Shown here piece by piece: positions 30,823 to 47,837 of a DNA stretch of 64,000 bases (position 1 is its first letter; every line of letters begins with the position of its first letter). The position numbers and the translations under genes are program-made. The stretch covers positions 496,001-560,000 of the forward strand of contig NZ_BCQM01000001.1 in assembly GCF_001552075.1 (NCBI RefSeq), in the 5' to 3' direction. The stretch is from Arthrobacter luteolus NBRC 107841 (GTDB taxonomy: Bacteria; Actinomycetota; Actinomycetes; Actinomycetales; Micrococcaceae). The notes below the pieces were generated by a model, which saw only the letters and a program-made list of their open reading frames with translations, had not been told where the DNA came from and searched no databases.

Positions 30823-30997
30823 TCCACTGCCGCGCAGTAGCGCCCCCGGGGCAGGCGCGCCCCGTACTGGGTTGTTCTGTGCCCGAATAGCCTCAGCCGG
30901 GCCGGACACGGTTTTGCCGGGCCGCAGCTCAAGTGGATCCACAGAATTGACACGTCCAAGGGCATGGGTTTCACTATTACACACAATGGAATATTAA

Positions 30998-31012
30998 TTC
31001 CGCTTTATGAAA
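30998..31012 (+). promoter_or_regulatory. Candidate purine-regulon operator upstream of uraD
   Basis: TTCCG-CTTTA-TGAAA fits the pattern TTCCR-N5-YGRAA found at other promoters of this cluster. A second 14-base palindrome GGAAT-ATTA-ATTCC lies just upstream at 30988-31001. The site is 68 bases before the uraD start. Confidence 0.5.
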
Positions 31013-31079
31013 TTTATTGAGGAAGCCCCGCGGCAAGGGGTTTCCCGCGTACCCCCGGACCAACCCCCAAAGGACGTCA

Positions 31080-31577
31080 ATGCTGCTCCACGACTTCAAT
31101 GAGGCCAGCCGCGCGGAGGTTACCGCCGCGCTCCTCCCCTGCCTTGACGTTCCGCGCTGGGCCGCCCAGATCGCTGACGCCCGTCCTTTCGACTCCGCCG
31201 GCGACCTGCTGCGTTTTGCCGGGGACGCCGCTGCTCCCCTCTCCTCCCGCGAGGTCGAGTCTGCCCTGGCCCAGCACCCCCGGATTGGTGAGCGCGCTGC
31301 GGGCGAGAACGCCGAAGCTCAATGGTCCCGGCAGGAACAAGCAGGGCTGGGCACTGCACCGGAGACGGTCATAGCTGCCCTGGCCGAGGGCAACCGCCGG
31401 TACGAAGAGAAATTTGGCCGGGTCTTCCTGATCCGCGCTGCCGGGCGCACCAAAGAAGAGGTCCTTGAGGCACTCCGGGAGCGGATCACCCTCCCCGCCG
31501 CCGAAGAGGAACACATTGTGCAGCAGCAGCTGCGCCAAATCGCAGTTCACCGGTTGGAAGGAATGATCTCCCAGTGA
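31080..31577 (+). CDS. uraD: 2-oxo-4-hydroxy-4-carboxy-5-ureidoimidazoline (OHCU) decarboxylase
   Basis: Third step from urate to S-allantoin: decarboxylates OHCU. The 165-residue all-helical protein has catalytic His66 in AQHPRIGERA and the LAEGNRRYEEKFGRVFLI substrate segment. AAAGGA precedes the ATG at 31080; a longer upstream frame is not family-like. The stop overlaps the GTG of uraH (GTGA), coupling the two steps. Its promoter region carries the cluster operator motif, consistent with control by the IclR-type regulator. Confidence 0.95.
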   Translation: MLLHDFNEASRAEVTAALLPCLDVPRWAAQIADARPFDSAGDLLRFAGDAAAPLSSREVESALAQHPRIGERAAGENAEAQWSRQEQAGLGTAPETVIAALAEGNRRYEEKFGRVFLIRAAGRTKEEVLEALRERITLPAAEEEHIVQQQLRQIAVHRLEGMISQ

Positions 31578-31915
31578 CAACCTCACACATCACCACGCAC
31601 GTCCTGGACACCGCCGCAGGAAAGCCCGCGGCAGGGATACCCGTCCGTCTGAGCTCCCTCGAAGACGGCACCTGGACCCAGCTGGCAACGTCCGAAACGG
31701 ATGCCGATGGACGCGTCAAGACACTTGGCCCCGCGGCGCTGCCCTCCGGGACCTACCGTCTGGAGTTCACCACCGCAGAGTACTTTGCCCGGCAGAAGAC
31801 GCCGGCGTTCTTCCCCGAAGTCCTGCTCACTTTCGATGTCGACGGGGGCGAAGCCCACTACCACGTCCCGCTGCTGCTGAGCCCGTACTCCTTCTCCAGC
31901 TACCGCGGCAGCTGA
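31574..31915 (+). CDS. uraH: 5-hydroxyisourate hydrolase (transthyretin-like)
   Basis: Hydrolyses the 5-hydroxyisourate made by uricase to OHCU. The 113 residues show the three signatures: THVLDTAAGKPA at the start (His), the central DADGRVKTL arginine segment, and the C-terminal tetrapeptide YRGS. It is translationally coupled to uraD by a 4-base overlap. In many Arthrobacter-like genomes uricase would follow directly; here aceE intervenes. Confidence 0.96.
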   Translation: MTTSHITTHVLDTAAGKPAAGIPVRLSSLEDGTWTQLATSETDADGRVKTLGPAALPSGTYRLEFTTAEYFARQKTPAFFPEVLLTFDVDGGEAHYHVPLLLSPYSFSSYRGS

Positions 31916-31968
31916 CCCGGCCGTGTGGCAGCGGCCGGCATCGCGCTGCCGCACTGCACCCGTACCCG

Positions 31969-31988
31969 CTGTGGCAGCGCTGCCACAG
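31969..31988 (+). promoter_or_regulatory. Perfect 20-base palindrome upstream of aceE
   Basis: CTGTGGCAGC is followed directly by its reverse complement. A degenerate partial copy with arms GTGGCAGC and GCTGCC lies upstream at 31925-31950. The palindrome centre is 54 bases before the aceE start, a usual operator position, and lacks a T-run expected of a terminator. Confidence 0.55.
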
Positions 31989-32032
31989 CCTTCGACTCCT
32001 TCTACTCTCTTCAACGATGAAACGAGGCTGCA

Positions 32033-34774
32033 ATGGCTGCAGGCGAAGACACGTCCCCCATCCTCAGCGGGCTGACCAGCCAGCTGCCGGATCGTGACCC
32101 GGAAGAAACCGCGGAATGGATTGAATCCCTCGACGAGCTGATCCGCTCGCAGGGTACCGAGCGGGCGCAGTTCATCATGCGTTCCCTGCTCCAGCGGGCA
32201 GGCTCCCGCTCCGTGGGCGTTCCGATGGTCACCACTACCGACTACGTCAACACCATCCCCGCGGATCAGGAACCGGAGTTCCCCGGCGATGAGGAAGTTG
32301 AACGCCGCTACCGTGCCTGGCTGCGCTGGAACGCCGCGGTCATGGTGCACCGCGCCCAGCGCCCCGGCATCGGCGTCGGCGGCCACATCTCCACCTACGC
32401 CGGAGCCGCGACCCTGTACGAAGTGGGCATGAACCACTTCTTCCGCGGCAAGGACCACCCCGGCGGCGGCGACCAGGTCTTCTTCCAGGGCCACGCCTCC
32501 CCCGGCATGTACGCCCGGGCCTTCCTCGAAGGCCGCCTGTCCGAGGAGGACCTCGACGGGTTCCGGCAGGAGAAGTCCCGCGAGGGACACGCCCTGTCCT
32601 CCTACCCGCACCCGCGGAACATGCCGGACTTCTGGGAATTCCCCACCGTGTCCATGGGCATCGGCCCGATGAACGCGATCTACCAGGCGCAGTCCAACCG
32701 CTACCTGCATAACCGCGGACTGAAGGACACCTCCGACCAGCACGTCTGGGCGTTCCTGGGCGACGGCGAAATGGACGAACCCGAATCGCGCGGCCTGCTC
32801 CAGCTCGCGGCGAATGACAAGCTCGACAACCTGACCTTCGTGGTGAACTGCAACCTGCAGCGCCTGGACGGCCCGGTGCGCGGCAACGGCAAGATCATGC
32901 AGGAACTCGAAGCGTTCTTCCGCGGTGCCGGCTGGAATGTGATCAAGGTTGTCTGGGGCCGGGAGTGGGATTCGCTGCTGGAGAAGGACAACGACGGCGC
33001 GCTGGTGGACATCATGAACTCCACCCTCGACGGCGATTACCAGACGTACAAGGCCGAGTCCGGCGGGTTCGTGCGGGAGCACTTCTTCGGCAAGACCCCG
33101 CAGACCAAGGACATGGTCGCTGACCTCTCGGACCAGGACATCTGGAACCTCAAGCGCGGCGGGCACGATTACCGCAAGGTTTACGCCGCGTACAAGGCTG
33201 CCACCGAGTTCAAGGGCAAGCCCACGGTCATCCTGGCGCACACGGTCAAGGGCTACGGCCTGGGCACGCACTTCGAGGGCCGCAACGCGACCCACCAGAT
33301 GAAGAAGCTGACCCTGGATGACCTCAAGGCCTTCCGCGACCACCTGCGGATCCCGATCAGCGATGAGCAGCTCGAAGCTGATCCGTACCAGCCCCCGTAC
33401 TTCCACCCGGGAGCTGATTCTCCGGAGATCAAGTACCTGCTCGAACGCCGCCGCGAGCTCGGCGGCAACGTTCCGGAGCGCCGCGAGAAGCACGCCCCGG
33501 TAAAACTGCCCTCGGCAGACTCCTACGCCGTCGCCAAGAAGGGCTCCGGCAAGCAGTTCGCTGCCACCACCATGGCCTTCGTCCGGCTGCTCAAGGACCT
33601 GATGCGGGACAAGGACTTCGGTGACCGGCTGGTCCCCATCGTCCCGGACGAATCGCGCACCTTCGGGATGGATGCCTTCTTCCCGAGCGCCAAGATCTAC
33701 AACCCTGACGGCCAGAACTATCTTTCCGTGGACCGCGACCTGATGCTGGCCTACAAGGAATCTCCCGCAGGAAAGCTGATCCATCCCGGAATCAACGAGG
33801 CTGGTGCAGTGGCAGCCTTCACCGCTGCCGGCACTGCCTACGCCACCCACGGCGAACCGCTGGTTCCGGTCTACGTGTTCTACTCGATGTTCGGCTTCCA
33901 GCGCACGGGCGACTCCTTCTGGGCGGCTGCCGACCAGCTGACCCGGGGTTTTGTCATTGGGGCCACTGCGGGGCGCACCACCCTGACCGGTGAGGGCCTG
34001 CAGCACGCTGACGGGCATTCCCCGATCCTGGCCTCCACCAACCCCGCGGTGAAGACCTACGATCCGGCCTACGGCTACGAGATCGGGCACATCATGCGCC
34101 ACGGCCTCGAAGAGATGTATGGCGAAGGATCCGAAGACCGGAACCTGATGTACTACCTGACGGTCTACAACGAACCAATTATCCAGCCGGCCGAGCCGGA
34201 GAACCTGGACGTGGACGGACTGCTCCGGGGGATTTACCGGGTGTCCGAATCGCCGGCAGAGGGGCCAAAGTGCCAGCTTCTAGCATCCGGTGTCTCCGTT
34301 CCCTGGGCACTGGAAGCCCAGAAACTGCTCGCGGAGGACTGGGGAGTTTCGGCCGATGTCTGGTCGGTGACCTCCTGGACCGAGCTGCGCCGTGACGGCC
34401 TGGCTGCCGAGGAGGAAGCCTTCCTCAACCCGGATGCCGAGCCGCGAGTGCCGTTCGTGACCCAGCAGCTCGCCGGCGCCGAAGGCCCGGTTGTGGCTGT
34501 CACCGACTACATGAAGGCCGTTCCGGACCAGATCCGGCAGTTCCTGCCGAACGAATTCGCCTCGCTGGGGGCGGACGGCTTCGGCTTCTCGGATACCCGT
34601 GCCGCGGCCCGCCGGTACTTCAAGAACGACACCCACTCCGTGGTGGTCCGCACCCTGCAGCTGCTCGCAGCGCGCGGCTCGGTGGGCGCCGACATCCCTG
34701 CCTACGCCATGGACCGCTACAAACTCCTGGACGTTAATGCCGGAACCACCGGCGGGGCCGGCGGCGACGCGTAG
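32033..34774 (+). CDS. aceE: Pyruvate dehydrogenase E1 component (homodimeric type)
   Basis: Thiamine-diphosphate enzyme that decarboxylates pyruvate and feeds acetyl groups to E2. The 913 residues have ThDP motif [17 protein letters not shown] with [27 protein letters not shown], and the transketolase-like second half ([30 protein letters not shown]). E2 and E3 genes are not in the window. GAGG precedes the ATG. It lies inside the urate cluster, between uraH and the uricase gene, away from the regulator-fabD-fabH-acpP-fabF group that often follows aceE in actinobacteria. Confidence 0.96.
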
Positions 34775-34790
34775 GTCCGCCGGAGCGCTG

Positions 34791-34876
34791 GCTCCAGGAC
34801 TCTGGCTCGAGGACTCTGGGTCCAGGGCTTGGATTGCAGGGGCTTGGATTACAGGGCTTGGATTGCAGGGACTTGG
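34791..34876 (+). repeat. Six-unit degenerate 14-15 base tandem repeat
   Basis: Six units share the core CAGG-x-CTTGG, starting at 34791, 34805, 34819, 34833, 34848 and 34862 (for example GGTCCAGGGCTTGG and ATTACAGGGCTTGG). The array begins 16 bases after the aceE stop codon and runs straight into a large hairpin. Confidence 0.8.
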
Positions 34877-34909
34877 CCCCAGGGATTCCCGGACCGGGAA
34901 TCCCTGGGG
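34877..34909. terminator. Perfect 33-base palindrome downstream of aceE, probable terminator or REP-like element
   Basis: Arms of 16 bases (34877-34892 and 34894-34909) are perfectly complementary around a single central A. Such a stem would be very stable in RNA. There is no T-run, so it may block exonucleases rather than end transcription. Confidence 0.7.
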
Positions 34910-34916
34910 CGGCATT

Positions 34917-34986
34917 CCTGTTCCGGCGCAGCGGGCCAGTGCGCTGCGCAGGAACAGGACGCCGGAATGCTCGCCGGAATGCTCGC
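34917..34986. repeat. Second large hairpin and a 12-base direct repeat
   Basis: CCTGTTCC-G-GCGCAGCG (34917-34933) pairs with CGCTGCGC-A-GGAACAGG (34942-34958) with one mismatch. GCCGGAATGCTC is then repeated twice at 34961-34984. Confidence 0.7.
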
Positions 34987-34997
34987 CGGAGGAGCGT

Positions 34998-35204
34998 TTA
35001 CCTGACCGCCGGGGATTCCCTGGCTGAGCGCCTGCGGCCGAAGGGACGCCACTTCAGCCAGCGGAAGCGGTCCTTGGAGCTCTTCCGCCTGGCCGGCAGG
35101 AAAAAGTCCGGATCTGCGCCCCCGCCTGCCGGAAAATAGAACTCCTGTGCCGCCACGGACTTCAGTACCGGCGGCTTCACTGTCTTCTCTGCTTCAGGGG
35201 ACAC
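34998..35204 (-). CDS. Small basic hypothetical protein
   Basis: A 68-residue protein beginning MSPEAEKTVKPPVLKS and ending in a very basic tract (KSSKDRFRWLKWRPFGRRR). The GTG start has GGAAG at good spacing, and the AT-rich DNA upstream looks like a promoter with a candidate cluster operator at 35219-35233. It is divergent from the uricase gene, about 350 bases away. I do not recognise a family. The composition differs from shadow frames nearby, but the gene is not proven. Confidence 0.45.
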   Translation of the reverse strand: MSPEAEKTVKPPVLKSVAAQEFYFPAGGGADPDFFLPARRKSSKDRFRWLKWRPFGRRRSARESPAVR

Positions 35205-35218
35205 CTTGACTCACTTCC

Positions 35219-35233
35219 TTCCATAAAGTGGAA
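35219..35233 (-). promoter_or_regulatory. Candidate purine-regulon operator upstream of the small basic protein
   Basis: TTCCA-TAAAG-TGGAA is a perfect 5-base-arm inverted repeat, the best match to the shared motif in the cluster. It lies 15 bases upstream of the GTG at 35204. Confidence 0.5.
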
Positions 35234-35509
35234 AAAGATTCTTGTTATGTGAAAAACAGTAACCGTCGGCACTTTCGCCGGTCAAGGGTTCCGCCGCCCT
35301 CAAGGGGATTCCGGAGGGCCGATCAGAAAATCTGCCAGAAGGCATTTACGTTGCTGATTGCCTCGGGTACTGTGAAGGCTACTTCGTGACCCAGGTCACG
35401 TAACCTGGGAGCAGCAGGCAGGGTTGTAATGAGCTGACATCAACCGATGTCGGCTCATTTTTTATGAGCCGATCCACAACGAGTGTGCAGATGACCGCTT
35501 CACACCCAA
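35234..35509. other. Intergenic region ahead of the uricase gene
   Basis: No coding frame is supported. Near 35433-35467 the inverted pair ATGAGCTGACATC and GATGTCGGCTCAT is followed by TTTTTTATG, a terminator- or attenuator-like hairpin on the plus strand. The uricase promoter must lie downstream of it, close to the operators at 35510-35543. Confidence 0.5.
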
Positions 35510-35543
35510 TTTCAATATGAAAACTTATTTCCATATAACGGAA
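35510..35543 (+). promoter_or_regulatory. Two candidate operators directly upstream of the uricase gene
   Basis: TTTCA-ATA-TGAAA is at 35510-35522 and TTCCA-TATAA-CGGAA at 35529-35543, the second matching the shared cluster motif. The pair ends 14 bases before the ATG and abuts the Shine-Dalgarno GGAGAAGG, a position suited to repression. Confidence 0.55.
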
Positions 35544-35557
35544 GTTTGGAGAAGGCC

Positions 35558-36466
35558 ATGAGCAGCAAAATCATCTTGGGAGACAACCAGTTCGGCAAGG
35601 CCGAAGTCCGAGTCGTAAAAATCTCGAGGGACACCTCCCGGCACGAAATCGAAGACCTCAATGTGACCTCCCAGCTGCGGGGCGATTTTTCCGCAGCCCA
35701 TCTGGAGGGCGACAACGCACACGTCGTTCCGACTGACACACAGAAAAACACCATCTATGCCTTCGCCCGGGAGGGCATCGGGGCCCCCGAGTCCCTTCTC
35801 CTGCGCCTGGGCGACCACTTCACCTCCAGCTTTGACTGGGTCACCGGCGGCCGGTGGGAAGCGGAAGCGTACAGCTGGGACCGGATCCAGGCCCACGGCA
35901 CCGGACACGACCACTCCTTCGTGCGCAGCGGCCAGGAAATCCGCACCGCGGTCCTGGTCCGTGAGGGCGGGACCAGCCACCTCATCGCAGGGCTGCGGGA
36001 CCTCACCGTCCTGAAGTCGACCGAGTCAGGTTTCATCGGATATCCCAAGGACCGGTACACCACCCTGCAGGAGACCACAGACCGCATCCTGGCCACGGAC
36101 ATCGCAGCCCGCTGGCGGTTCAAGACGGGCACGGATTTCAGCAAGGTCGACTTCAACAAGAGCTACAACGACGTCCGGGCGCTGCTGCTGGAGGGTTTCA
36201 CGGAGAAGTACTCCCACGCCCTGCAGCAGACCCTGTTCGACATGGGAACCAAGGTTCTCGAGGCACACAGCGAGATCGACGAAATCAAGTTCTCCATGCC
36301 CAATAAGCACCATTTCCTGGTGGACCTCTCCCCGTTCGGCCTCGACAACCCCAACGAAGTCTTCTTCGCGGCGGACCGGCCTTACGGGCTCATCGAAGCC
36401 ACCGTCAAACGCGAAGACGCGGCTGGCGCGGAAACCGCCTGGTCCGGCATCGCCGGATTCTGCTAG
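35558..36466 (+). CDS. uox: Urate oxidase (uricase)
   Basis: Cofactor-free oxidation of urate to 5-hydroxyisourate and hydrogen peroxide. The 302-residue tandem T-fold enzyme resembles Arthrobacter globiformis uricase throughout. Catalytic residues are Lys14 in FGKAEVR, the threonine in PTDTQKNT (59-65), and histidine in MPNKHHFLVDL. SARWRF-type substrate clamp and C-terminal AADRPYGLIEATV are present. It ends AGFC rather than with a peroxisomal SKL signal, as expected in bacteria. The ATG at 35558 follows GGAGAAGG. The furA-katA pair elsewhere in the window could remove the peroxide. Confidence 0.97.
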   Translation: MSSKIILGDNQFGKAEVRVVKISRDTSRHEIEDLNVTSQLRGDFSAAHLEGDNAHVVPTDTQKNTIYAFAREGIGAPESLLLRLGDHFTSSFDWVTGGRWEAEAYSWDRIQAHGTGHDHSFVRSGQEIRTAVLVREGGTSHLIAGLRDLTVLKSTESGFIGYPKDRYTTLQETTDRILATDIAARWRFKTGTDFSKVDFNKSYNDVRALLLEGFTEKYSHALQQTLFDMGTKVLEAHSEIDEIKFSMPNKHHFLVDLSPFGLDNPNEVFFAADRPYGLIEATVKREDAAGAETAWSGIAGFC

Positions 36467-36674
36467 CAGCGCTGTTCCGCACCAGAGCGCACAACGCACC
36501 AGAAGCAGTACAAGCAGTACAAGCAGTAACCATGCCTTCAAGGCACACTCACTCCGCATCCACATCCGGAAGGGTGCACCGCCGGCACCGGCGGTGCACC
36601 CTGCAGCCTCATTTTGTTAGCCAGACCACTTCAGAAAAGACGAAGACGTCTGCCATGAACCAAGGAAGTCTGCT

Positions 36675-38198
36675 ATGACCATGAAAAACCGCCGGAATGG
36701 CGAAACCCTGCAGCGCCGCAGCCATCAGCACTCCAGCCGCCCGGAAGACGAACGGCTCCCGCTCGGAAGCACCTTCGCCTACGGCTTCCAGCACGTCCTG
36801 ACCATGTACGGCGGAATCATTGCCGTTCCCCTCATCATCGGCCAGGCGGCTGGCCTCTCCTCCGCCGACATCGGCATCCTGATCGCCGCCGCACTGTTTA
36901 TGGGCGGACTGGCCACCCTGCTGCAGACACTCGGCCTTCCCTTCTTCGGCTCGCAGCTGCCGCTGGTACAGGGGGTGTCCTTCGCCAGCGTCGCCACCAT
37001 GGTCGCCATTGTTTCCGGTGGAGGCGGCCTTCCGGCAGTTTTCGGCGCCGTCATCGTCTCCGCTGCGATCGGCCTCCTCATCGCGCCGGTGTTCTCCCGG
37101 ATCGTCCGGTTCTTCCCACCGGTGGTTACCGGGACTGTTATCACCACCATCGGCCTGACCCTGATGCCCGTCGCCGCGAACTGGGCCATGGGCGGTAACC
37201 GGACGGCCGAAGACTACGGAAGCATGGCGAACATCGGGCTGGCCGGCGTCACCCTCGTCCTGGTCCTCCTGCTCAGCAAGGTCGGCAGCGCCACGATCTC
37301 CCGGCTGTCCATCCTGCTGGCGATGGTCATTGGCACCCTCGTCGCCGTCGCGGCCGGCGTCGCCGACTTCTCAAAGGTCGGCGAGGGCCCCATTGTCGCT
37401 TTCCCGACGCCGTTCCACCTCGGAGCGCCGACATTTGAAATTGCCGCCATTATCTCCATGCTGATCGTGGTCCTGGTGATCCTCACTGAAACCATGGCGG
37501 ACATCCTGGCTGTCGGCGAGATCGTCGGCACCCGCACGGACTCCAAGCGGATCGCGGCCGGACTGCGGGCAGACATGGCCTCCAGCCTGGTTGCCCCGGT
37601 CTTTGGCTCCTTTACCCAGAGCGCCTTCGCCCAGAACGTGGGACTGGTTGCCGTCACCAAGATCAAGAGCCGCTATGTGGTGGCCGCCGGCGGCGTCATC
37701 CTGGTCCTGCTGGGACTGCTGCCCATCATGGGGCGCCTGATCGCAGCGGTCCCCACCGCAGTGCTCGGCGGCGCCGGAATCGTCCTGTTCGGAACGGTGG
37801 CCGCCAGCGGCATCCGCACCCTGGCCAAGGTCGAATACAAGAACAACATGAACCTCATCATCGTGGCCACCTCCATCGGGTTCGGCATGCTCCCGATCGC
37901 GGCTCCGACCTTCTACGACGCTTTCCCTGCCTGGTTCGGCACGATCTTCCACTCCGGCATCAGCTCGTCTGCGCTCATGGCGATCGCACTGAACCTGCTC
38001 TTCAACCACCTCAAAGCCGGGAACTCGGAAAACTCGTCGGTCTTCGCCGCCGGCACCGGCCGGGTCATCCGCGAGGAGGACCTGCAGTGCCTGGCAGAAG
38101 GGGACCGTTATGAGAACGGCCAGCTGATCGACTGCGACGGCAATGTTGTCCCCGTCGATCCGGAGGCACCCAAGCCGGCCGGGACCGCCGGCACGTAG
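36675..38198 (+). CDS. NCS2 nucleobase permease (urate/xanthine type)
   Basis: A 507-residue proton symporter with about 14 helices, including the two half-helices. The NCS2/NAT signature appears as QNVGLVAVTKIKSR near residue 320, with the substrate glutamate region ETMADILAVGE about 50 residues earlier. GFQHVLTMYGGIIAVPLIIG is the typical first helix. It lies 208 bases downstream of uricase, so urate or xanthine uptake is likely. The long N- and C-terminal tails are hydrophilic. Confidence 0.92.
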   Translation: MTMKNRRNGETLQRRSHQHSSRPEDERLPLGSTFAYGFQHVLTMYGGIIAVPLIIGQAAGLSSADIGILIAAALFMGGLATLLQTLGLPFFGSQLPLVQGVSFASVATMVAIVSGGGGLPAVFGAVIVSAAIGLLIAPVFSRIVRFFPPVVTGTVITTIGLTLMPVAANWAMGGNRTAEDYGSMANIGLAGVTLVLVLLLSKVGSATISRLSILLAMVIGTLVAVAAGVADFSKVGEGPIVAFPTPFHLGAPTFEIAAIISMLIVVLVILTETMADILAVGEIVGTRTDSKRIAAGLRADMASSLVAPVFGSFTQSAFAQNVGLVAVTKIKSRYVVAAGGVILVLLGLLPIMGRLIAAVPTAVLGGAGIVLFGTVAASGIRTLAKVEYKNNMNLIIVATSIGFGMLPIAAPTFYDAFPAWFGTIFHSGISSSALMAIALNLLFNHLKAGNSENSSVFAAGTGRVIREEDLQCLAEGDRYENGQLIDCDGNVVPVDPEAPKPAGTAGT

Positions 38199-38231
38199 GT
38201 CCACGTTCAGCGGAGCTGCCCAGGGAACCAG

Positions 38232-38264
38232 TTGAGGCCCTGACCGTATCGATCAGGGCCTCAA
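38232..38264. terminator. Terminator between the permease and the IclR-type regulator
   Basis: TTGAGGCCCTGA (38232-38243) pairs perfectly with 38253-38264 around a 9-base loop, between two convergent genes. Confidence 0.8.
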
Positions 38265-38298
38265 CTCCGGCGCACCGCCGGCGCTCAGCAGCGGACGC

Positions 38299-39054
38299 TC
38301 AGTGCTGGTTCAGTTCCTCGGAAATGGCGAGGGCGGCTTCCCGCAGCAGCGGAACGGCCCGCTTGGCGAAGGCGTCATCAACGCGGGAGACCGGCCCGGA
38401 AACGGAAATCGCGGCTGGAGTCGGGGCGCCGGGGATAGCCATCGCGAAACACCGGACGCCGATCTCCTGCTCCTCCTCATCCACGGAGTAACCACGTTCC
38501 CGGATCAGATTCAGATCCGCCAGCAGCGACTCGATATCACCGATGCTCTTCGGGGTCGGCGTGGGCAGGCCCTTGCGCCCAGCGATCCCGCGCACAGTGT
38601 CGTCGTCGAGCTCCGCCAGGATGGCCTTGCCCATTCCGGTTGCGTGCATGTACCCGCGCCGGCCCACCTCGGTGAACATCCGCATGGAGTGCAGCGAGGG
38701 AACCTGGGCCACATAGAGGACCATGTCGGAATCCAGGACCGCCATGTTGGCGGTCTCACCCAGCTGGTCCACCAGGGACTTCAGCTGGGGGCGGGCCAGG
38801 GCGCCGAGCTGCTTGTTCGCTCCTTCGCCCAGCCGGATCAGGCGCGGACCCAGGGCATAGCGGCGGTTCGGCAGCTGCCGGATGTAGCCAAGTGTCACCA
38901 GGGTGCGCAGCAGCCGGTGGATTGTGGGGAGGGGTAAATCCGTGGAGGCCGAAAGTTCGCTGAGGGTTACGTCGCCCCCGGCATCGGTGATGAGCTCCAG
39001 CAGCTCAAATACGCGTTCAACAGACTGCACGCCGCCCGGGGCTTTTTCGCCCAT
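38299..39054 (-). CDS. IclR-family regulator (AllR-like) of purine and glyoxylate catabolism
   Basis: A 251-residue regulator. The winged helix at residues about 8-70 contains VQSVERVFELLELI and STDLPLPTIHRLLRTLVTLG, followed by an IclR ligand domain (GYMHATGMGKAILAEL, RERGYSVDEEEQEIGVRCFA). AllR of enterobacteria represses allantoin and glyoxylate genes and responds to glyoxylate or allantoin. The gene is centred in the cluster, divergent from the malic enzyme gene. A copy of the shared operator lies at 39092-39106 just upstream, suggesting autoregulation. Confidence 0.88.
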   Translation of the reverse strand: MGEKAPGGVQSVERVFELLELITDAGGDVTLSELSASTDLPLPTIHRLLRTLVTLGYIRQLPNRRYALGPRLIRLGEGANKQLGALARPQLKSLVDQLGETANMAVLDSDMVLYVAQVPSLHSMRMFTEVGRRGYMHATGMGKAILAELDDDTVRGIAGRKGLPTPTPKSIGDIESLLADLNLIRERGYSVDEEEQEIGVRCFAMAIPGAPTPAAISVSGPVSRVDDAFAKRAVPLLREAALAISEELNQH

Positions 39055-39091
39055 AACGCAGGACTCCTACCAGTTAAGTGTTCCGAAGCTT

Positions 39092-39106
39092 ATCCACATC
39101 GTGAAA
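39092..39106 (-). promoter_or_regulatory. Candidate operator upstream of the IclR-type gene
   Basis: ATCCA-CATCG-TGAAA matches the shared 15-base pattern with one change and lies 38 bases before the regulator start. Confidence 0.4.
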
Positions 39107-39193
39107 TTACTCTATCGACCTTCCCTGCCTAACGCAGGTTTCCCGTGAATTTGCTTCCCATGTGGGTTGTATTTCCACAGAGTAGATAATAAT

Positions 39194-39208
39194 GTCCATA
39201 ATACGAAA
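39194..39208 (+). promoter_or_regulatory. Candidate operator upstream of the malic enzyme operon
   Basis: GTCCA-TAATA-CGAAA matches the shared pattern with one change, 62 bases before the malic enzyme ATG. A weaker half-site TTCCACAGAG lies at 39173-39182. Confidence 0.4.
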
Positions 39209-39269
39209 TAACTCAGAGATCCCGAGCAGACCAAGCCCTCTTCGAGGGCCCACACATGGAGGAATCCCA

Positions 39270-40682
39270 ATGGCAAATCCCGGCCCCGGCAACTCGATCA
39301 CCCTGCGGGTGGAGGCACCCTCCGGTTTCACCGCCACCAGCGAACTGGCGGCCGCCGCCGCTGCCGCCGGTGCTGCCGTCACCGCCCTGGACGTCACCGA
39401 GTCCCGCCACGAAACCATCGTGGTCGACGTCACCTGCGATACCACCGGCGACGAGCATGCCCGCCAGGTGGAGGCCGCCCTGAACCAGCTCGACGGCGTT
39501 ACCGTCCGCAATGTTTCGGACCGGACCTTCCTGATGCACCTCGGCGGCAAGCTCCAGGTGACGCCGAAGGTCACGCTCAACAACCGCGACGATCTTTCCC
39601 GCGCCTACACGCCCGGCGTTGCCCGGGTATGCCTGGCCATTGCGGAAAACCCCGAGGCCGCCCGCAACCTGACCATCAAGCGCAACACCATCGCCGTCGT
39701 CACCGATGGCTCCGCTGTGCTGGGCCTGGGCAACATCGGGCCGGCCGCGGCGCTGCCGGTCATGGAAGGCAAGGCCGCCCTGTTTAAGCAGTTCGCCAAC
39801 GTGGATGCCTGGCCGGTGTGCCTGGATACTCAGGACACCGAGGAGATCATCAGCATCGTCAAGGCCCTGGCACCCGTCTACGGCGGCGTGAATCTGGAGG
39901 ACATCGCCGCGCCGCGCTGCTTCGAAATCGAAAACCGGCTCCGCGAGGAACTGGACATTCCGGTCTTCCACGATGACCAGCATGGAACCGCCATCGTCAC
40001 CCTGGCCGCGCTGGTCAACGCGCTGCGCGTAGTGGGCAAACAGCTCTCCGAGGTCCGGATTGTGGTCTCCGGTGTCGGCGCGGCAGGCTCGGCCATCATT
40101 GCGCTGCTCAAGGCACAGGGGGCGGAGCACATCATCGCCGCAGGCCGTTCAGGTGCCATTCATTCCGGCGCCAGCTACGACGACGAACACCGGGCCTGGA
40201 TTGCCGAAAACACCAACGTGGAGGGCTTCTCCGGCACGCTTCACGAAGCCCTGGCCGGCGCTGACGTCTTCATTGGAGTGAGCGCGCCTCACGTCATCGG
40301 TGAGGAACAGGTCGCCGCGATGGCCGATAACGCCATTGTCTTTGCCATGGCCAACCCGACCCCGGAAATCGATCCCGCCATCGCCGCCCGGCATGCCGCC
40401 GTCGTCGCCACCGGACGCAGCGACTTCCCGAACCAGATCAACAACGTCCTGGCCTTCCCCGGCTTCTTCCGCGGCCTCCTCGACGCCGGGGTCTCCGATA
40501 TCACCCCGGAAATGCTGGTGGCCGCTGCCCAGGCAATCGCCGGCCGGGTGGCCGACGACGAGCTCAATGCCAGCTACATCATTCCGAGCGTTTTTGACCC
40601 GCAGGTCGCCGGGGACGTCGCCGCCGCCGTCGCGGGTGCCGCACAGTCCGCCCGTACCGCCGCTGCTGAACTGGTCGGCTGA
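39270..40682 (+). CDS. NAD-type malic enzyme with N-terminal ACT-like domain
   Basis: Oxidatively decarboxylates malate to pyruvate. The 470 residues begin with an ACT-like region (about 10-90), then malic enzyme motifs [29 protein letters not shown], the divalent-metal [14 protein letters not shown], and the Rossmann loop GVGAAGSA. The short type without the phosphotransacetylase domain usually prefers NAD. GGAGG precedes the ATG at 39270; a longer in-frame start at 39192 would overlap the operator. It leads the operon of the DUF6986 protein and the ureidoglycine enzyme. Confidence 0.92.
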
Positions 40683-40685
40683 GGC

Positions 40686-41978
40686 ATGGCAAAGCACCTC
40701 GCTTCCCTGACTCCGCAGGACCTGGACCGGATCGATGCCTCCCTCCAGGGGACGGACCGGTTCCTGGAGCGGAACTACCCGGGCGATGACGGCACCCGCC
40801 AGCCGATCCACACTGTTTATGTACCCGCAGACCGGTTCACTCCGGCGCTCGCCGCTGATTGGGGAGCCCAGGCAACCGCTGCGGTGGACGGCCGCGGCGG
40901 CCTGGAGCGGCTCGGCGAACTGCTGGGCCTGGAACCGGAGCTTGGAACCGCCGTCGCCACCCGGGTGGCCCGGAAGCTGGCCGAGGAACCCATCGAGGAC
41001 CTCCGGCTGGACTTCGAGGACGGCTACGGCGACCGGGGCGATGACGCCGAGGACGACGACGCCGTCGCGGCCGCCACTGCCGTGGCTGCTGCCGTGGAAG
41101 CCGGCACAGCACCGCCCTTCATCGGCATCCGCTTCAAGTGCTTCGAGGCGCCTACCCGGGCCCGCGGGCTGCGGACGCTTGATCTGTTCGTTTCCACGCT
41201 GGCCCGGTCCGGTGAGCTCCCCACGGGGCTGGTCCTCACGCTGCCCAAGGTCTCCACCGTTGACCAGGTCAAGGCCATGGACGACGCCGTGACCCGGCTG
41301 GAGGAGATCCACTGCCTGCCGGCGGGGCGGCTGAAGTTCGAGGTCCAGGTGGAAACACCCCAGCTGATCCTCGGTGCGGACGGCGCCTCGCCGGTTGCGC
41401 AGCTGCCGCACGCTGTCCCCGGCCGGATCAGCTCGCTGCACTACGGCACCTATGACTACTCCGCGTCGCTGCAGGTCGCTGCGGAGTACCAGTCAATGGA
41501 ACACCCCGTGGCGGACCTGGCCAAGGAGATCATGCAGCTGGCCGTGGCCGGTACGGGCATCCGCCTCTCCGACGGCTCCACCAACGTCATTCCCGTCGGT
41601 GACAATACGGAGAACGCCTGGAAACTGCACGGCAGGCTGGTGCGCAGGTCCCTGGAACGGGGTTACTACCAGGGCTGGGACCTGCACGCAGCCCAGCTGC
41701 CCAGCCGGTTTACCGCTACCTATGCTTTCTACCGCGAAGGCCTGCCCGCGGCCGCACTCCGGCTGCGCAACTACGTTGAGCAGACCGGCAGCGGCGTGAT
41801 GGATGAACCAGCCACGGCACGCGCCCTGGCCGGGTTCATTCTCCGCGGTGTCCAGTGCGGGGCCGTAGGCCCCGAGGAAGTCCTGTCCCAGGCCGGCGTC
41901 GGGCTAAGCCGGCTCACCGCCCTTGCCCACCCGCAGCTGGCCGCCAACCCGCGGCTTGCCAGCCCGGCCGCCAACTAA
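40686..41978 (+). CDS. DUF6986 / HpcH-HpaI aldolase-like protein, possible malate synthase
   Basis: A 430-residue CitE-like TIM-barrel protein. Putative metal and substrate residues: RLDFEDGYG, the Glu in EVQVETPQLIL, HYGTYDYSASLQ, and GWDLHAAQLPSR. CitE-superfamily proteins cleave or form C-C bonds with acyl-CoA; the haloarchaeal malate synthase (isoform H) belongs to this superfamily and is about the same length. It starts 3 bases after the malic enzyme gene, in a glyoxylate-producing pathway. Condensation of glyoxylate with acetyl-CoA to malate is therefore a reasonable but unproven guess. Confidence 0.75.
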   Translation: MAKHLASLTPQDLDRIDASLQGTDRFLERNYPGDDGTRQPIHTVYVPADRFTPALAADWGAQATAAVDGRGGLERLGELLGLEPELGTAVATRVARKLAEEPIEDLRLDFEDGYGDRGDDAEDDDAVAAATAVAAAVEAGTAPPFIGIRFKCFEAPTRARGLRTLDLFVSTLARSGELPTGLVLTLPKVSTVDQVKAMDDAVTRLEEIHCLPAGRLKFEVQVETPQLILGADGASPVAQLPHAVPGRISSLHYGTYDYSASLQVAAEYQSMEHPVADLAKEIMQLAVAGTGIRLSDGSTNVIPVGDNTENAWKLHGRLVRRSLERGYYQGWDLHAAQLPSRFTATYAFYREGLPAAALRLRNYVEQTGSGVMDEPATARALAGFILRGVQCGAVGPEEVLSQAGVGLSRLTALAHPQLAANPRLASPAAN

Positions 41979-41991
41979 GAGGAGCACCTTG

Positions 41992-42804
41992 ATGAGCAGT
42001 TACTTCTATCCGCAGGGCGGTCTTCCGCCCCAGACCCAGCTCCTTACCGACCGCGCCGTGGTCAAGGAGGCCTACACCGTCATTCCAAAGGGCGTGCTCC
42101 GCGACATCGTCACCTCCAACCTCCCGGGCTGGGAGAATACCCGGTCCTGGATCCTTGCCCGGCCCATCGCCGGCTTTGCCACCACTTTCAGCCAGCTCAT
42201 CGTCGAGGTGGGCCCCGGCGGAGGCTCAGCCAAACCGGAGCCCGAGGCCGGTGTGGAGGGGGTCATTTTCCTCACCCAGGGCAGCCTGACGCTCGGACTC
42301 GACGGCGAGACACACCAGCTCGAGGCCGGCGGCTACGCCTACCTTGCGGCCGGAGCGGACTGGAGCCTGCGTAACTCCTCGGAGGGGATCGCCAGCTTCC
42401 AGTGGATCCGCAAGGCGTATGAGCCGTTGGAGGGTTTCGCGGCGAAGTCCTTCGTGACCAGTGACCAGGAGGTGGAACCCACCCCCATGCCAGGCACGGA
42501 CGGAGCCTGGGCCACTACCCGCTTCGCGGACCCCAATGATCTGGCGCATGACATGCACGTCAACATCGTTACCTTCCGGCCGGGTGCCTCCATACCGTTC
42601 GCCGAAACCCACGTGATGGAGCACGGGCTCTTCGTCCTGGAGGGGAAGGCGGTCTACCGCCTCAACGATGACTGGGTTGAGGTGGAGGCCGGCGACTTCA
42701 TGTGGCTGCGCGCCTTCTGCCCGCAGGCCTGTTACGCGGGCGGACCGGGCAACTTCCGCTACCTGCTGTACAAGGACGTCAACCGGCAGATCCGGCTCAC
42801 CTGA
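41992..42804 (+). CDS. allE: (S)-ureidoglycine aminohydrolase (bicupin)
   Basis: Releases ammonia from S-ureidoglycine to give S-ureidoglycolate in the allantoin pathway. The 270-residue bicupin has the second cupin metal motif FAETHVMEHGLFVLEG with the expected Glu-His-His ligands and a downstream glutamine in CPQACYAGG. YFYPQGGLPPQTQLLTDRA is the typical N-terminus. GAGGAG precedes the ATG. It is the third gene of the malic enzyme operon, so expression of nitrogen recovery and glyoxylate use is linked. Confidence 0.9.
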   Translation: MSSYFYPQGGLPPQTQLLTDRAVVKEAYTVIPKGVLRDIVTSNLPGWENTRSWILARPIAGFATTFSQLIVEVGPGGGSAKPEPEAGVEGVIFLTQGSLTLGLDGETHQLEAGGYAYLAAGADWSLRNSSEGIASFQWIRKAYEPLEGFAAKSFVTSDQEVEPTPMPGTDGAWATTRFADPNDLAHDMHVNIVTFRPGASIPFAETHVMEHGLFVLEGKAVYRLNDDWVEVEAGDFMWLRAFCPQACYAGGPGNFRYLLYKDVNRQIRLT

Positions 42805-42939
42805 CCTGTTTCTGCCGCCCTGCCCCAAACAGCTGCGCCCCGCCCTTCCATGGGCCGGGGCGCAGCTGTTTTAAGTCCAGCGGCAGGGGTTGACTCCATC
42901 GGCACTCCATCCTAGGCTTTTCACATAGCAAGATATTGT

Positions 42940-42954
42940 TTCCACAATATGAAA
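42940..42954 (+). promoter_or_regulatory. Candidate purine-regulon operator upstream of the hyi-glxR-gcl-glxK operon
   Basis: TTCCA-CAATA-TGAAA matches the shared 15-base motif, 53 bases before the hyi start. TTCACA and TATTGT nearby may form promoter boxes. Confidence 0.5.
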
Positions 42955-43007: not shown

Positions 43008-43808
43008 ATGACGTATTCCGTGAACTGCTCAATCCTCCTGACCGAGCTGCCACTGCTCGAGCGTCCCGCCGCAGCCAAGGCCGCTGGTTTCGACGCCGTC
43101 GAGTTCTGGTGGCCCTTCGATACCTCGGTGCCCTCCGATTCCCAGGTCACGGAGTTCGAGAACGCCATCACCGGGGCCGGCGTCCAGCTCACGGGCCTGA
43201 ATTTCAACGCCGGAGACATGCCCGCCGGGGACCGCGGCCTGGTGTCCTGGAAGGGCCGCTGCTCCGAGTTCAAGGACAACATCGACGTTGTCGCCGGCAT
43301 TGGGGAGCGGCTGGGCTGCCGGTCCTTCAACGCTCTCTACGGCAACCGCCAGGACGAATTCACTCCGGAGGAACAGGACACCCTGGCCGTCAAGAACCTG
43401 GCCGCGGCCGCTCAGGGCGTTGCCCGCATTGGCGGCACCGTCCTGCTGGAACCGGTCAGCGGCGCTGCCCGCTATCCCCTCCTGACCGCGCAGGATGCCC
43501 TGGGGGTCATCGCCCGGGTCAAGGAGGAAACCGGCGCGGACAACATCAAACTCCTCGCCGACTTCTACCACCTCGCCGTCAACGGCGACGATGTAGCCGC
43601 CGTCATCGAAAACCACGCCAAGGACTTCGGCCACATCCAGATTGCCGACAGCCCGGGCCGCGGCGCCCCCGGAACCGGCGAGCTGCCCCTCGGCGAATGG
43701 ATCGCCCGCAGCCGCGAACTCGGCTACACCGGCACGATCGGCCTGGAGTACAAGGAACCTGCGCAGACCGCCTTTGCCTGGACCATCCGCCAGCCGGTCT
43801 CCAACTAA
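43008..43808 (+). CDS. hyi: Hydroxypyruvate isomerase
   Basis: Interconverts hydroxypyruvate and tartronate semialdehyde in glyoxylate metabolism. A 266-residue AP-endonuclease-2-like TIM barrel starting MTYSVNCSILLTELPLLERP. Metal ligands can be seen in LLEPVSG (Glu), LADFYHLAV (Asp/His), HIQIADSPGRGAPGTGEL (His/Asp) and the final YTGTIGLEYKE (Glu). The gene opens the gcl operon, 44 bases ahead of glxR, behind a candidate operator. Confidence 0.94.
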   Translation: MTYSVNCSILLTELPLLERPAAAKAAGFDAVEFWWPFDTSVPSDSQVTEFENAITGAGVQLTGLNFNAGDMPAGDRGLVSWKGRCSEFKDNIDVVAGIGERLGCRSFNALYGNRQDEFTPEEQDTLAVKNLAAAAQGVARIGGTVLLEPVSGAARYPLLTAQDALGVIARVKEETGADNIKLLADFYHLAVNGDDVAAVIENHAKDFGHIQIADSPGRGAPGTGELPLGEWIARSRELGYTGTIGLEYKEPAQTAFAWTIRQPVSN

Positions 43809-43852: not shown

Positions 43853-44731
43853 ATGAGCAACGTTGCAGTCATCGGACTCGGAATCATGGGCCTGCCCATG
43901 GCCATCAATCTGGTCAAAGCCGGCCACTCGGTCACCGGGTTCAACCGCAGCCAGGACAAGATCGACAAACTCGTCGCCGAAGGCGGCAACGGCGCCGGCA
44001 GCATTGCCGAGGCCGTCAAGGATGCCGACGTCGTCATCACGATGGTGCCGGACTCCCCCGACGTCGAAGGCGTAGTCTCCGGCCCCGACGGCGTTTTCGC
44101 CAACGCCCGGCCGGGCACCCTGTGGATCGACGCCAGCAGCATCCGCCCGGACGTTGCCAAGCAGCTCGCCGACAACGCCAAGGCCGCTGGAATCCGTGCC
44201 CTCGACGCACCGGTCTCCGGCGGAGAACAGGGAGCAATCAATGCTGCCCTGTCCATCATGGTCGGCGGAGACGCTGCGGACTTCGAGGCCGCCCAGGACG
44301 TGCTGAACGCCGTCGGGAAGACCATTGTCCACGTTGGGCCGGCCGGTTCCGGCCAGACCGTAAAAGCTGCCAACCAGCTGATCGTGGCCGTCAACATCCA
44401 GGTCCTCGGAGAGGCCGTTGCCTTCCTCGAGGCCTACGGAGTGGACACCGACGCGGCGCTCAAGGTGCTCGGCGGCGGTCTTGCCGGCTCCAAGGTCCTG
44501 GACCAGAAGGGGCAGAAGATGCTGGACCGCAACTTCGAGCCCGGTTTCCGGCTTGCCCTGCACCACAAGGACCTGGGCATCGTGACCTCAGCCGCCCGCG
44601 AGGCAAACGTCGCCCTTCCGCTCGGCGCAATCGCAGCCCAGCTCGTCGCCGCCACGGTGAATCAGGGCGACGGCGGACTGGACCATTCCGGACTGTTCAA
44701 GCAGACCCTCCGGCTCAGCGGCCGCGAGTAA
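43853..44731 (+). CDS. glxR: Tartronate semialdehyde reductase (2-hydroxy-3-oxopropionate reductase)
   Basis: Reduces tartronate semialdehyde to D-glycerate. The 292-residue beta-hydroxyacid dehydrogenase has the Rossmann loop [15 protein letters not shown], the substrate loop [11 protein letters not shown], catalytic lysine in [10 protein letters not shown], and HHKDLGIV near the C-terminus. The start ATG follows AAAGGA. It is the second gene of the glycerate route, between hyi and gcl. The name glxR here is the E. coli metabolic gene, not the corynebacterial CRP-like regulator. Confidence 0.95.
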
Positions 44732-44819: not shown

Positions 44820-46598
<1,779 letters not shown>

Positions 46599-46667: not shown

Positions 46668-47837
46668 ATGCGTGTGGTCATAGCACCGGACAAGTTCAAG
46701 GGCTCGCTGACGGCCCCGGACGTTGTTGCTCACCTCACCGCCGGCCTCCGCGCGGTATCCCTGCCAGCCGGACAAACCCTGGAAGTGGACGGTATTCCGG
46801 TGGCCGACGGCGGTGAAGGCACCCTGGAGGCCGCCGTCGCCACGGGTTTCACGCGCCGCAGCGCCGTGGTCAGCGGTCCCACCGGGGAACCGCTGACCGC
46901 TGCCTTCGCTGTCCGCGGCGGCGAGGCAGTCATCGAGATGGCCACCGCCTCCGGCCTCGCAGTGCTGCCCGGCGGTGTGAAGGACGCACTGGGGTCCAGC
47001 TCCCGGGGAACCGGCGAGCTGATTACCGCAGCATTGGACGCCGGCTGTACCCGCATCATCCTGGGCGTCGGGGGCAGCGCCGGGACTGACGGCGGCGCCG
47101 GCATCCTGCAGGGACTCGGTGTGCGCCTGCTGGACGCGGACGGCAACGACCTTGAGGGCGGCGGCGCAGCGCTGCTCCGGCTCGCCGGCATCGATTCTTC
47201 TGCCCTCGACCCGCGGCTGCGGGAAGCACGGTTTGTGCTGGCCAGCGACGTGGACAATCCGCTGCTCGGACCGGACGGTGCCGCAGCGGTCTTCGGACCG
47301 CAGAAGGGTGCCTCTGCCGGCGACCTCCAGCTGCTCGATGCAGCTCTGGCACGCTTCGTGGAAGTCCTCGGGCAGCATTTCGGACCGCGCGCAGCGGCAG
47401 CCGCTAAGGCTCCGGGGGCAGGAGCAGCCGGCGGCGTCGGGTTCGCGGCGCTCGCGGTCCTTGCGGCGGACCGCCGGCCAGGCATCGACGTCGTCCTGGA
47501 ATTCACCGGGCTTGCGGACCGGCTGGCCGGTGCGGACCTCGTTATCACCGGTGAAGGCAGCCTCGATGAGCAAAGCCTGCTCGGTAAAACCCCGTTGGGT
47601 GTTGCCCGGGCAGCTGCCGCGGCGGGTGTGCCTGCAATCGCCGTCTGCGGGCGCACGACCCTGCATGATGACCAGCTCCGCGCGGCGGGCTTCCAGCGCA
47701 CCTATGCCCTGACGGCACTGGAAGCCGACACGGACAAATCCATGGCCGGTGCTGGACCGCTCCTGGAACAGGTGGGCGCGGAGATCGCCGGACAGCTTGC
47801 CCGCGGACCGCTGCCCGAGCCGGTGGAAACCCGCTGA
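46668..47837 (+). CDS. glxK: Glycerate kinase (GlxK/GarK type)
   Basis: Phosphorylates D-glycerate to 2-phosphoglycerate, delivering carbon to glycolysis. The 389-residue type 1 kinase shows the N-terminal APDKFKGSLTAPDVVAHL, ADGGEGTLEA, GVGGSAGTDGGAGILQGLG, and the C-terminal ITGEGSLDEQSLLGKTPLGV motifs. AAAGGAAG precedes the ATG. It closes the hyi-glxR-gcl-glxK operon, 69 bases after gcl. Confidence 0.95.
   Translation: MRVVIAPDKFKGSLTAPDVVAHLTAGLRAVSLPAGQTLEVDGIPVADGGEGTLEAAVATGFTRRSAVVSGPTGEPLTAAFAVRGGEAVIEMATASGLAVLPGGVKDALGSSSRGTGELITAALDAGCTRIILGVGGSAGTDGGAGILQGLGVRLLDADGNDLEGGGAALLRLAGIDSSALDPRLREARFVLASDVDNPLLGPDGAAAVFGPQKGASAGDLQLLDAALARFVEVLGQHFGPRAAAAAKAPGAGAAGGVGFAALAVLAADRRPGIDVVLEFTGLADRLAGADLVITGEGSLDEQSLLGKTPLGVARAAAAAGVPAIAVCGRTTLHDDQLRAAGFQRTYALTALEADTDKSMAGAGPLLEQVGAEIAGQLARGPLPEPVETR

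Follow-up and report, generated by a model that had tools for sequence, protein, structure and literature searches.

We focus here on a stretch of 64,000 nucleotides from Arthrobacter luteolus NBRC 107841 (contig NZ_BCQM01000001.1, positions 496,001 to 560,000; hereafter the window), which carries a cluster of genes for urate breakdown and glyoxylate use. Six near-palindromic sites in this cluster probably serve as operators for the IclR-family product of 38299-39054 and also, again probably, for a second copy of that protein, 78% identical, encoded elsewhere in the genome; judged from sequence, the protein would repress the urate and glyoxylate genes and glyoxylate would act as its inducer. 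A second layer of control appears to lie upstream of the urate oxidase gene uox, where an element at 35383-35470 is a candidate riboswitch for a purine, possibly of a new class.

An initial annotation had described the six sites as 15-mers of the form TTCCA-N5-TGRAA within about 80 bp of a start codon, and had read them as one regulon. All six are present letter for letter in the window, each at most about 85 bp from a start codon. The near-palindrome with its five-base spacer stands as well, but the consensus was too tight: the right half is CGGAA at uox and CGAAA at the malic enzyme gene mae, the left half is TTCCG at uraD, and the first T is absent at iclR and mae. TTYCR-N5-YGRAA is the better description, being exact at four of the six sites and one mismatch away at iclR and mae. 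The sites and their partners are listed here with their ranks under the matrix introduced below ("small gene" denotes a conserved gene divergent from uox).

30977-30991, no strand: distal member of the uraD pair (TTACACACAATGGAA), 21 bp from 30998; rank 9
30998-31012, no strand: IclR-type operator of uraD; rank 4; tandem-profile match C1:526982
35219-35233, no strand: IclR-type operator of the small gene; rank 2
35240-35254, no strand: partner of 35219 at 21 bp, abutting the -10 box of the small gene; rank 13
35508-35522, no strand: degenerate uox partner (TTTCAATATGAAA at 35510), offset -21, weak score of 7.9; rank 35
35529-35543, no strand: IclR-type operator of uox; rank 3
39092-39106, no strand: single IclR-type operator of iclR, predicted to serve autoregulation, at -51 to -54 in relatives; rank 5
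39173-39187, no strand: distal operator of the mae pair; rank 8
39194-39208, no strand: proximal operator of the mae pair; rank 6, or 9 with mae untrained
42919-42933, no strand: first operator of the hyi pair; rank 15
42940-42954, no strand: second operator of the hyi pair; rank 1 and the genome's best tandem-profile match

The annotation had suggested a position matrix built from the six sites themselves. We trained it instead on foreign promoters, namely those of iclR (n=78), mae (n=78), uox (n=73) and hyi (n=10) from a pool of 80 loci in further strains of Arthrobacter, Pseudarthrobacter and Paenarthrobacter; neither the window nor the two relatives closest to it, A. pullicola and A. gallicola, entered the training, and one iclR entry and one mae entry were misregistered. 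Among the 63,986 15-mers of the window the six sites took ranks 1-6, with scores of 15.5-22.8 against 13.4 for the best 15-mer of the reversed window. The two promoters absent from training, those of the small gene and uraD, ranked second and fourth. When each promoter was left out of training in turn, ranks 1-6 held, except that mae fell to rank 9 once left out. Rank 7 is position 5954 (14.9), outside the cluster, and ranks 10-12 and 14 likewise fall at unrelated places.

Operator pairs, conservation and the reach of the regulon

The sites are largely arranged in pairs. When the matrix was run over offsets of 12 to 40 bp on both sides of every site, five of the six (those of uraD, the small gene, uox, mae and hyi) had their best-scoring partner exactly 21 bp away. 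In relatives the mean partner score at -21 is 16.3 for mae (78 loci) and 17.8 for hyi (10 loci), and the next-best offsets lie near or below zero. The text of PMC8222616 gives GKTYCRYW3-4RYGRAMC as the consensus of group 1 IclR-family operators; for 94 groups of the family it reports sites in tandem at a spacing of 18-22 nt, which it links to binding by tetramers. Set against that consensus, the relatives' matrix shows the group 1 palindrome KTYCRYWWWRYGRAM, and the 21 bp found at five sites (with a weak partner at uox and a single site at iclR) falls within the group 1 spacing. Motif and spacing thus mark these operators as of a known kind, and the motif points to the IclR protein encoded in the cluster.

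The promoters tell us more about how the pairs might act. Three of them can be placed in the window:

30947-30977, plus strand: putative uraD promoter TTGACA ... CACTAT, read from the sequence; the operator pair begins at the promoter end
35256-35285, minus strand: small-gene promoter TTGACC-18-TACTGT
42890-42918, plus strand: hyi promoter TTGACT-17-TAGGCT; the operator pair starts at the next base

The order of a TTGAC...TANNNT promoter followed by an operator pair recurs at hyi in 10/10 relatives, and a like promoter followed by an operator (score of at least 9) precedes the small gene in 69/73, against 0/78 for the control gene duf6986. A pair directly after the -10 box, as at hyi and the small gene, occupies a blocking position, which suggests a repressor. 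At mae and uox no hyi-type promoter was found (0/78 and 0/73 relatives), and repression is therefore not readable from the layout there.

Conservation was followed in 80 loci with an IclR protein 83-98% identical to that of the window, taking the best TTYCR-N5-YGRAA match within 250 bp. A site with at most one mismatch precedes iclR in 80/80 and mae in 80/80 (the two share one intergenic region), hyi in 12/12 and uox in 63/75 loci. Genes internal to the operons served as controls and have such a site in 0/80 (duf6986), 0/80 (allE), 1/76 (pbuX) and 1/11 (gcl) loci. The small-gene operator scores above 15 in 59/75 loci and has a fitting right half 21 bp on in 62/75; its arms vary between species yet remain palindromic, the sites having been chosen partly by score.

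For the whole genome we used a 40-bp, sequence-only profile made from 51 foreign tandem sites. Distal sites were kept only if they scored above 17 with a fitting right half, by which 68 of 128 distinct sites were taken, and 51 of the 68 entered the alignment (left out were the misregistered mae L092, uox L094, L119, L125, L128 and 12 others). In the 3,917,865-base genome, with 116 first-look candidates scored, no more than six places reached E <= 10 with the profile. Five are those of hyi, the small gene, uox, mae and uraD, and the sixth precedes the second IclR copy at C1:859750. Single sites were not reported by it; these include the operator of iclR, that of a second pyruvate dehydrogenase gene, aceE2 (TTCCGCATAACGGAA, about 60 bp upstream; L050:8838), and a weak one at the genome's own malate synthase (13.6; L209:3181).

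Beyond this genome, 20 open reading frames flanking hits in nine other genomes were scanned (not the flanks of every match), and 18 were assigned a family: allantoin-permease-like proteins and aceE (4 each), glutamate dehydrogenase (gdhA, 3), hydroxypyruvate isomerase and the C4-dicarboxylate carrier dctA (2 each), and a lactate/glycolate-permease-like protein, an 8-oxoguanine deaminase and uraD (1 each). The allantoin-permease-like gene and aceE often have one operator site between them. Within the genus (29 genomes), an operator match at a loose limit of E <= 1 occurs in 17 of the 23 genomes with iclR (E <= 1e-50) and in none of the six without it. Ten reading frames near these matches were scanned, giving six for malate synthase A, one for a metabolite symporter and three without a family; four of the six malate synthase A matches are in genomes whose iclR has no adjoining cluster genes. 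One relative (L072) has malate synthase A within the operon itself, in the order mae, malate synthase A, DUF6986, aminohydrolase. Glyoxylate is burnt via malate by the combined action of malate synthase, malic enzyme and pyruvate dehydrogenase. The single regulon joining urate breakdown to glyoxylate use that had been proposed thus has comparative support, from the 80 loci and from the co-occurrence in the genus; the tandem pairs, the second IclR copy, the extension to malate synthase and aceE and the structured RNA upstream of uox go beyond the initial annotation.

The genes of the cluster, with scores and cutoffs of the family models, are:

31080-31577, plus strand: uraD, OHCU decarboxylase (TIGR03180, 171.9 bits, cutoff 139.4)
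31574-31915, plus strand: uraH, hydroxyisourate hydrolase (TIGR02962, 138 bits, cutoff 87.45)
32033-34774, plus strand: aceE, pyruvate dehydrogenase E1, within the cluster (TIGR00759, 1370.6 bits, cutoff 859.9)
34998-35204, minus strand: conserved small protein of 68 residues, divergent from uox, with homologues in relatives
35558-36466, plus strand: uox, urate oxidase (TIGR03383, 361.1 bits, cutoff 168.4)
36675-38198, plus strand: pbuX-type purine permease (TIGR03173, 499.9 bits, cutoff 414.15)
38299-39054, minus strand: IclR-family regulator, predicted operator binder (PF09339, 62.0 bits; PF01614, 129.8 bits)
39270-40682, plus strand: mae, malic enzyme (PF00390, PF03949)
40686-41978, plus strand: DUF6986 protein of the malic enzyme operon (PF22484, 588.4 bits)
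41923-42804, plus strand: (S)-ureidoglycine aminohydrolase, start uncertain (NF008376, 492.1 bits, cutoff 338)
43008-43808, plus strand: hyi-like hydroxypyruvate isomerase (TIGR03234, 236.1 bits, below the cutoff of 353.45)
43853-44731, plus strand: 2-hydroxy-3-oxopropionate reductase (TIGR01505, 378.1 bits, cutoff 340.75)
44820-46598, plus strand: gcl, glyoxylate carboligase (TIGR01504, 1096.3 bits, cutoff 711.2)
46668-47837, plus strand: glycerate kinase (TIGR00045, 367.6 bits, cutoff 168.45)

The small protein, which has a tandem operator of its own and an EFYLPxGGGxDPDFYLP-like motif, gave no Pfam match at E <= 1e-5 when the copy of the relative L096 was searched. The DUF6986 protein is weakly similar to malyl-CoA lyase.

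A structured leader RNA upstream of uox

Between the small gene and uox lies a conserved RNA element with a putative promoter box of its own:

35368-35373, plus strand: putative -10 box of the leader RNA, TACTGT, read from the sequence
35383-35470, plus strand: structured leader RNA of about 88 nt, with helix P1, helix P2 (CCUG/CAGG, CAGCAGR loop) and terminator hairpin P3

The core pattern of the element is found in 69/80 related loci. In an alignment of 30 sequences (the window and 29 of 65 distinct sequences), 34 of 35 consecutive core bases are invariant, although this is partly built in, since a pattern on that core served to collect the sequences and fixes some of its letters. Folding z-scores range from -3.5 to -5.0 in eight of nine members and reach -0.8 in one. 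Across 26 distinct sequences 98.7% of the cells are paired, a value equalled in 0/500 shuffles, with the alignment having been fitted to an earlier structure model, which favours it. Both sides change at nine pairs, comprising 6/6 in P1 and 3/11 in P3, and the four pairs of P2 are invariant. The element therefore combines a conserved structure with compensatory changes, as expected of a riboswitch.

The P2 helix reads CCUG/CAGG in 37 of 38 cores; this genome's second copy of the RNA (L258) has CUUG/CAAG, a compensatory change. A fifth P2 pair, of three different kinds, extends the helix in 10 of 14 cores of the guanine deaminase type and in 0/24 others; the 14 include L264, whose gene looks degraded, and the pattern fixes the CA of the right arm and the tail. 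A further alignment comprised 20 of the 26 loci L211-L236 and seven Arthrobacter-group loci; the six left out were weak (L234, L236) or near-duplicates (L213, L216, L217, L226). Two other foldings were discarded. RNAalifold had paired P2 with the first CAGG, which we replaced with the second because six sequences break the pairing with the first, and a fold seen in the window, CCCAGGU/ACCUGGG, was set aside because many relatives do not have those letters. An expression platform is also present: the leaders of uox, pbuX and xdhA have a terminator hairpin followed by a U run, a run that some guanine deaminase leaders do not have.

In the window no Rfam family matched the element at the gathering score, and at lax thresholds there was no riboswitch match, only weak and unrelated ones, among them two miRNA hairpins (E 0.43 and 4.4). 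Listings and abstracts of open papers contained no account of such an RNA. By eye it is also unlike an ANTAR target RNA, with its paired hairpins and six-base loops.

In its own family (149 genomes) the RNA is matched in 24 genomes and 9 of 32 genera, or in 23 genomes and 8 genera when L234, which lacks the core, is left aside. A short core pattern gave 8 matches in 7/394 genomes of the class (one of them, L269, inside an open frame) against 3 in the reversed control, and 19 matches in 15/297 genomes of the order against 1; it occurs in four families in all, counting L264. A search of the order with the profile R3 matched 14/396 genomes, two of them at tRNA flanks. The matches L234, L243, L244, L253, L255, L257 and L269 were rejected as weak or due to chance (tRNA flanks, coding sequence).

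The genes that follow the RNA were tallied at 41 loci, part of those matched, of which 40 carry the core and represent 39 places (L256 is the same as L282). The first known gene downstream in these 40 is uox in 15, guanine/8-oxoguanine deaminase in 14 (13 places), pbuX in 4, xdhA in 1, a Bmp-like gene in 1 and something else in 5, so that uox, pbuX, xdhA or guanine deaminase starts 59-216 nt after the core in 34/40. The uox, pbuX and xdhA contexts are confined to the own family, and guanine deaminase also follows the RNA in two others (L263 and kin; L265). An RNA leading genes of one pathway in varied genomic contexts is again what a riboswitch would show. This genome itself has the second copy, L258 (C8:91179), before a guanine/8-oxoguanine deaminase gene (E 0.016 with R3, and an exact pattern match). 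Within the 230 bp upstream of the RNA core, 8/21 loci have an IclR-type site with a score of 13 or more, compared with 4/441 background windows; the xdhA locus has none within that distance.

Some single loci deserve mention. At L251 the RNA precedes a gene whose product, identified by eye, is a Bmp-like substrate protein of an ABC transporter and perhaps a purine nucleoside carrier. At L264 the core stands before a reading frame that starts like guanine deaminase, gave no tblastn match and is possibly degraded. In many of 20 loci inspected (L072, L082 and others), though not in the window, the CRP/GlxR-like sequence GTGATGTACACCAC is found upstream of the RNA.

We propose, at roughly even chances, that the element represents an undescribed riboswitch class of Arthrobacter and its kin that senses guanine, xanthine or urate. 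The CAGC of the P2 loop would pair with the GCUG in the 5' arm of the terminator and so let transcription proceed into uox, pbuX, xdhA or guanine deaminase; combined with the IclR repressor this would make a two-input gate. If true, an early substrate would be read by RNA and the last product by a protein on the same transcription unit.

The regulator and competing explanations

The regulator has both domains by which the IclR family is recognised, HTH_IclR and IclR_C, and falls short of the NCBIfam equivalog cutoffs for AllR (115 of 406), IclR (158 of 380) and BhcR (189.9 of 350, the best match). An alignment with E. coli IclR (PDB 2o99, 1td5), read against Table 1 of PMC11323563, shows four of the five residues that contact the glyoxylate oxygens to be kept (Gly160, Asp212, Ser239 and Ser241 in E. 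coli numbering; Ala161 is Met). Of the pyruvate-patch residues one in four is kept, the same pattern that this table gives for BhcR. Glyoxylate is accordingly a likely inducer, to judge from these residues.

In the mechanism that we favour, an IclR tetramer would sit on one face of the DNA and bind two TTYCR-N5-YGRAA palindromes with a spacing of 21 bp. A pair bound directly after the -10 box, as at hyi and the small gene, would cause repression, and the regulator would also repress itself from its one site. The breakdown of urate and allantoin ends in glyoxylate, which would probably release the regulator. Three sets of genes would then be switched on: those for urate oxidation (uox, uraD and uraH), those of the glycerate route (hyi, gcl and the genes for the reductase and glycerate kinase) and those for burning glyoxylate via malate (malate synthase, malic enzyme and aceE). 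At uox the leader RNA with its terminator hairpin, presumably co-transcribed with the gene and likely reading a purine, would add the second layer upstream.

Several observations weigh against parts of this scheme. Training on orthologous promoters favours four of the six sites, related sequences are not independent of one another, and the sites of the tandem profile were selected partly by score. The iclR site has no partner at offsets of 12-40 bp on either side; the uox partner is degenerate (7.9), with a best mean in relatives of -1.7 at -20 and no standout offset, and the remaining 12/75 uox sites carry two mismatches. The hyi-type promoter was not found at mae and uox, as noted above, and no good operator accompanies L258, the guanine deaminase leader of this genome (best score 8.4). 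Strict TTYCA-N5-TGRAA matches occur at 16 places in the genome, only two of them among the six sites, so that this pattern is too blunt for a genome-wide test. Of 13 other strict matches recovered as loci, eight score below 13 and five at least 14; four of these five are in open frames, including one of 20.8 inside recR (L014), and the fifth, of 19.5 (L012, position 1501; own genome C4:215871), adjoins no Pfam-named gene. Two related IclR copies blur which one acts, and BhcR is an activator in vivo according to the text of PMC11323563.

The 14 strict matches outside the six sites are what could be said for reading the conserved letters as chance matches in AT-rich DNA, the objection that the initial annotation had itself raised. 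We regard this as already refuted and give it next to no credence: ranks 1-6 under a foreign-trained matrix, the 21-bp partners, the six tandem places genome-wide and conservation across 80 loci all contradict it. A more serious contender, although we consider it somewhat less probable than not, is that the second IclR copy binds the sites, alone or alongside the first, so that the cluster is run from outside or jointly. That copy adjoins its own copies of aceE, DUF6986, the aminohydrolase and hyi (L050, own genome C1:848001-868000); a paired operator of like kind precedes it, and aceE2 too has a site upstream. Window-type iclR (at least 97% identical) is present in only 3 of the 29 genus genomes, and in the remaining 20 of the 23 iclR-bearing genomes there is no more than a relative at 74-79% identity. 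One of the two clusters may therefore have been acquired. The genome encodes 12 further IclR-like proteins. Against control by the second copy, 80 relatives have the window type of iclR together with this cluster, and the gene has an operator of its own.

It is unlikely, in our estimate, that the IclR protein activates, or acts both ways, at some of the promoters. The in vivo activation by BhcR, its best if sub-cutoff match (PMC11323563, in its text), would fit such a role, as would the good sites that other genera have ahead of guanine deaminase or pbuX, 71-113 nt upstream of the RNA core, and that at L230, L232 and L233 lie, by eye, upstream of the -35 box; at hyi and the small gene the pair follows the -10 box immediately, which is a blocking position. 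For the element at 35383-35470, a free small RNA or a protein-bound attenuator is a tentative alternative to a riboswitch that we consider less likely than not. The element has its own putative -10 box and a complete terminator, and uox starts about 87 nt further on with IclR operators in between. Yet a purine gene follows the core in 34 of the 40 loci (plus one transporter) and differs by genus, which is the pattern of a leader acting in cis.

Relation to known systems

In Streptomyces coelicolor, another actinomycete, AllR is an IclR-type repressor of allantoin genes. The regulator described here resembles AllR and IclR of E. coli in its fold, in the glyoxylate and allantoin genes that it would serve and in the mostly kept residues for the glyoxylate oxygens. 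It differs from them in its operator sequence (compare the table in PMC8222616) and in a regulon that adds urate oxidation and aceE. Paracoccus BhcR, as described in the text of PMC11323563, is alike in its kept glyoxylate residues and changed pyruvate patch and is the best NCBIfam match; it is unlike in that it activates the hydroxyaspartate cycle, and the score here lies below its cutoff. With the group 1 operators of PMC8222616 the sites share half-sites, spacing, tandem pairs about two helix turns apart and a position 20-80 nt before the gene. A urate/glyoxylate/malate regulog of Arthrobacter and kin was not found in the text of that study, its supplementary regulog lists excepted. Operators and regulon thus add a further member to the known group 1 IclR-family systems; the greater novelty lies in the leader RNA. 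For Arthrobacter and related bacteria, the analysis yields a defined operator with its predicted regulator and regulon for breaking down urate and glyoxylate, the malate route included, and these can be tested directly.

The leader RNA may be the larger prize, as such leaders of purine breakdown match no family in the RNA library searched. The nearest known counterpart is the NMT1 xanthine/uric acid riboswitch, which is likewise an RNA leader tied to purine oxidation. According to the text of PMC7373994, NMT1 is reported from Proteobacteria only, works as an OFF switch by masking the ribosome site and hardly ever has a terminator. By that description the leader RNA stands apart, being found in Arthrobacter and other genomes of its order and mostly accompanied by a terminator. 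The set of genes downstream narrows its ligand to a few purines, and two copies in one genome, before uox and before guanine deaminase, are available for testing.

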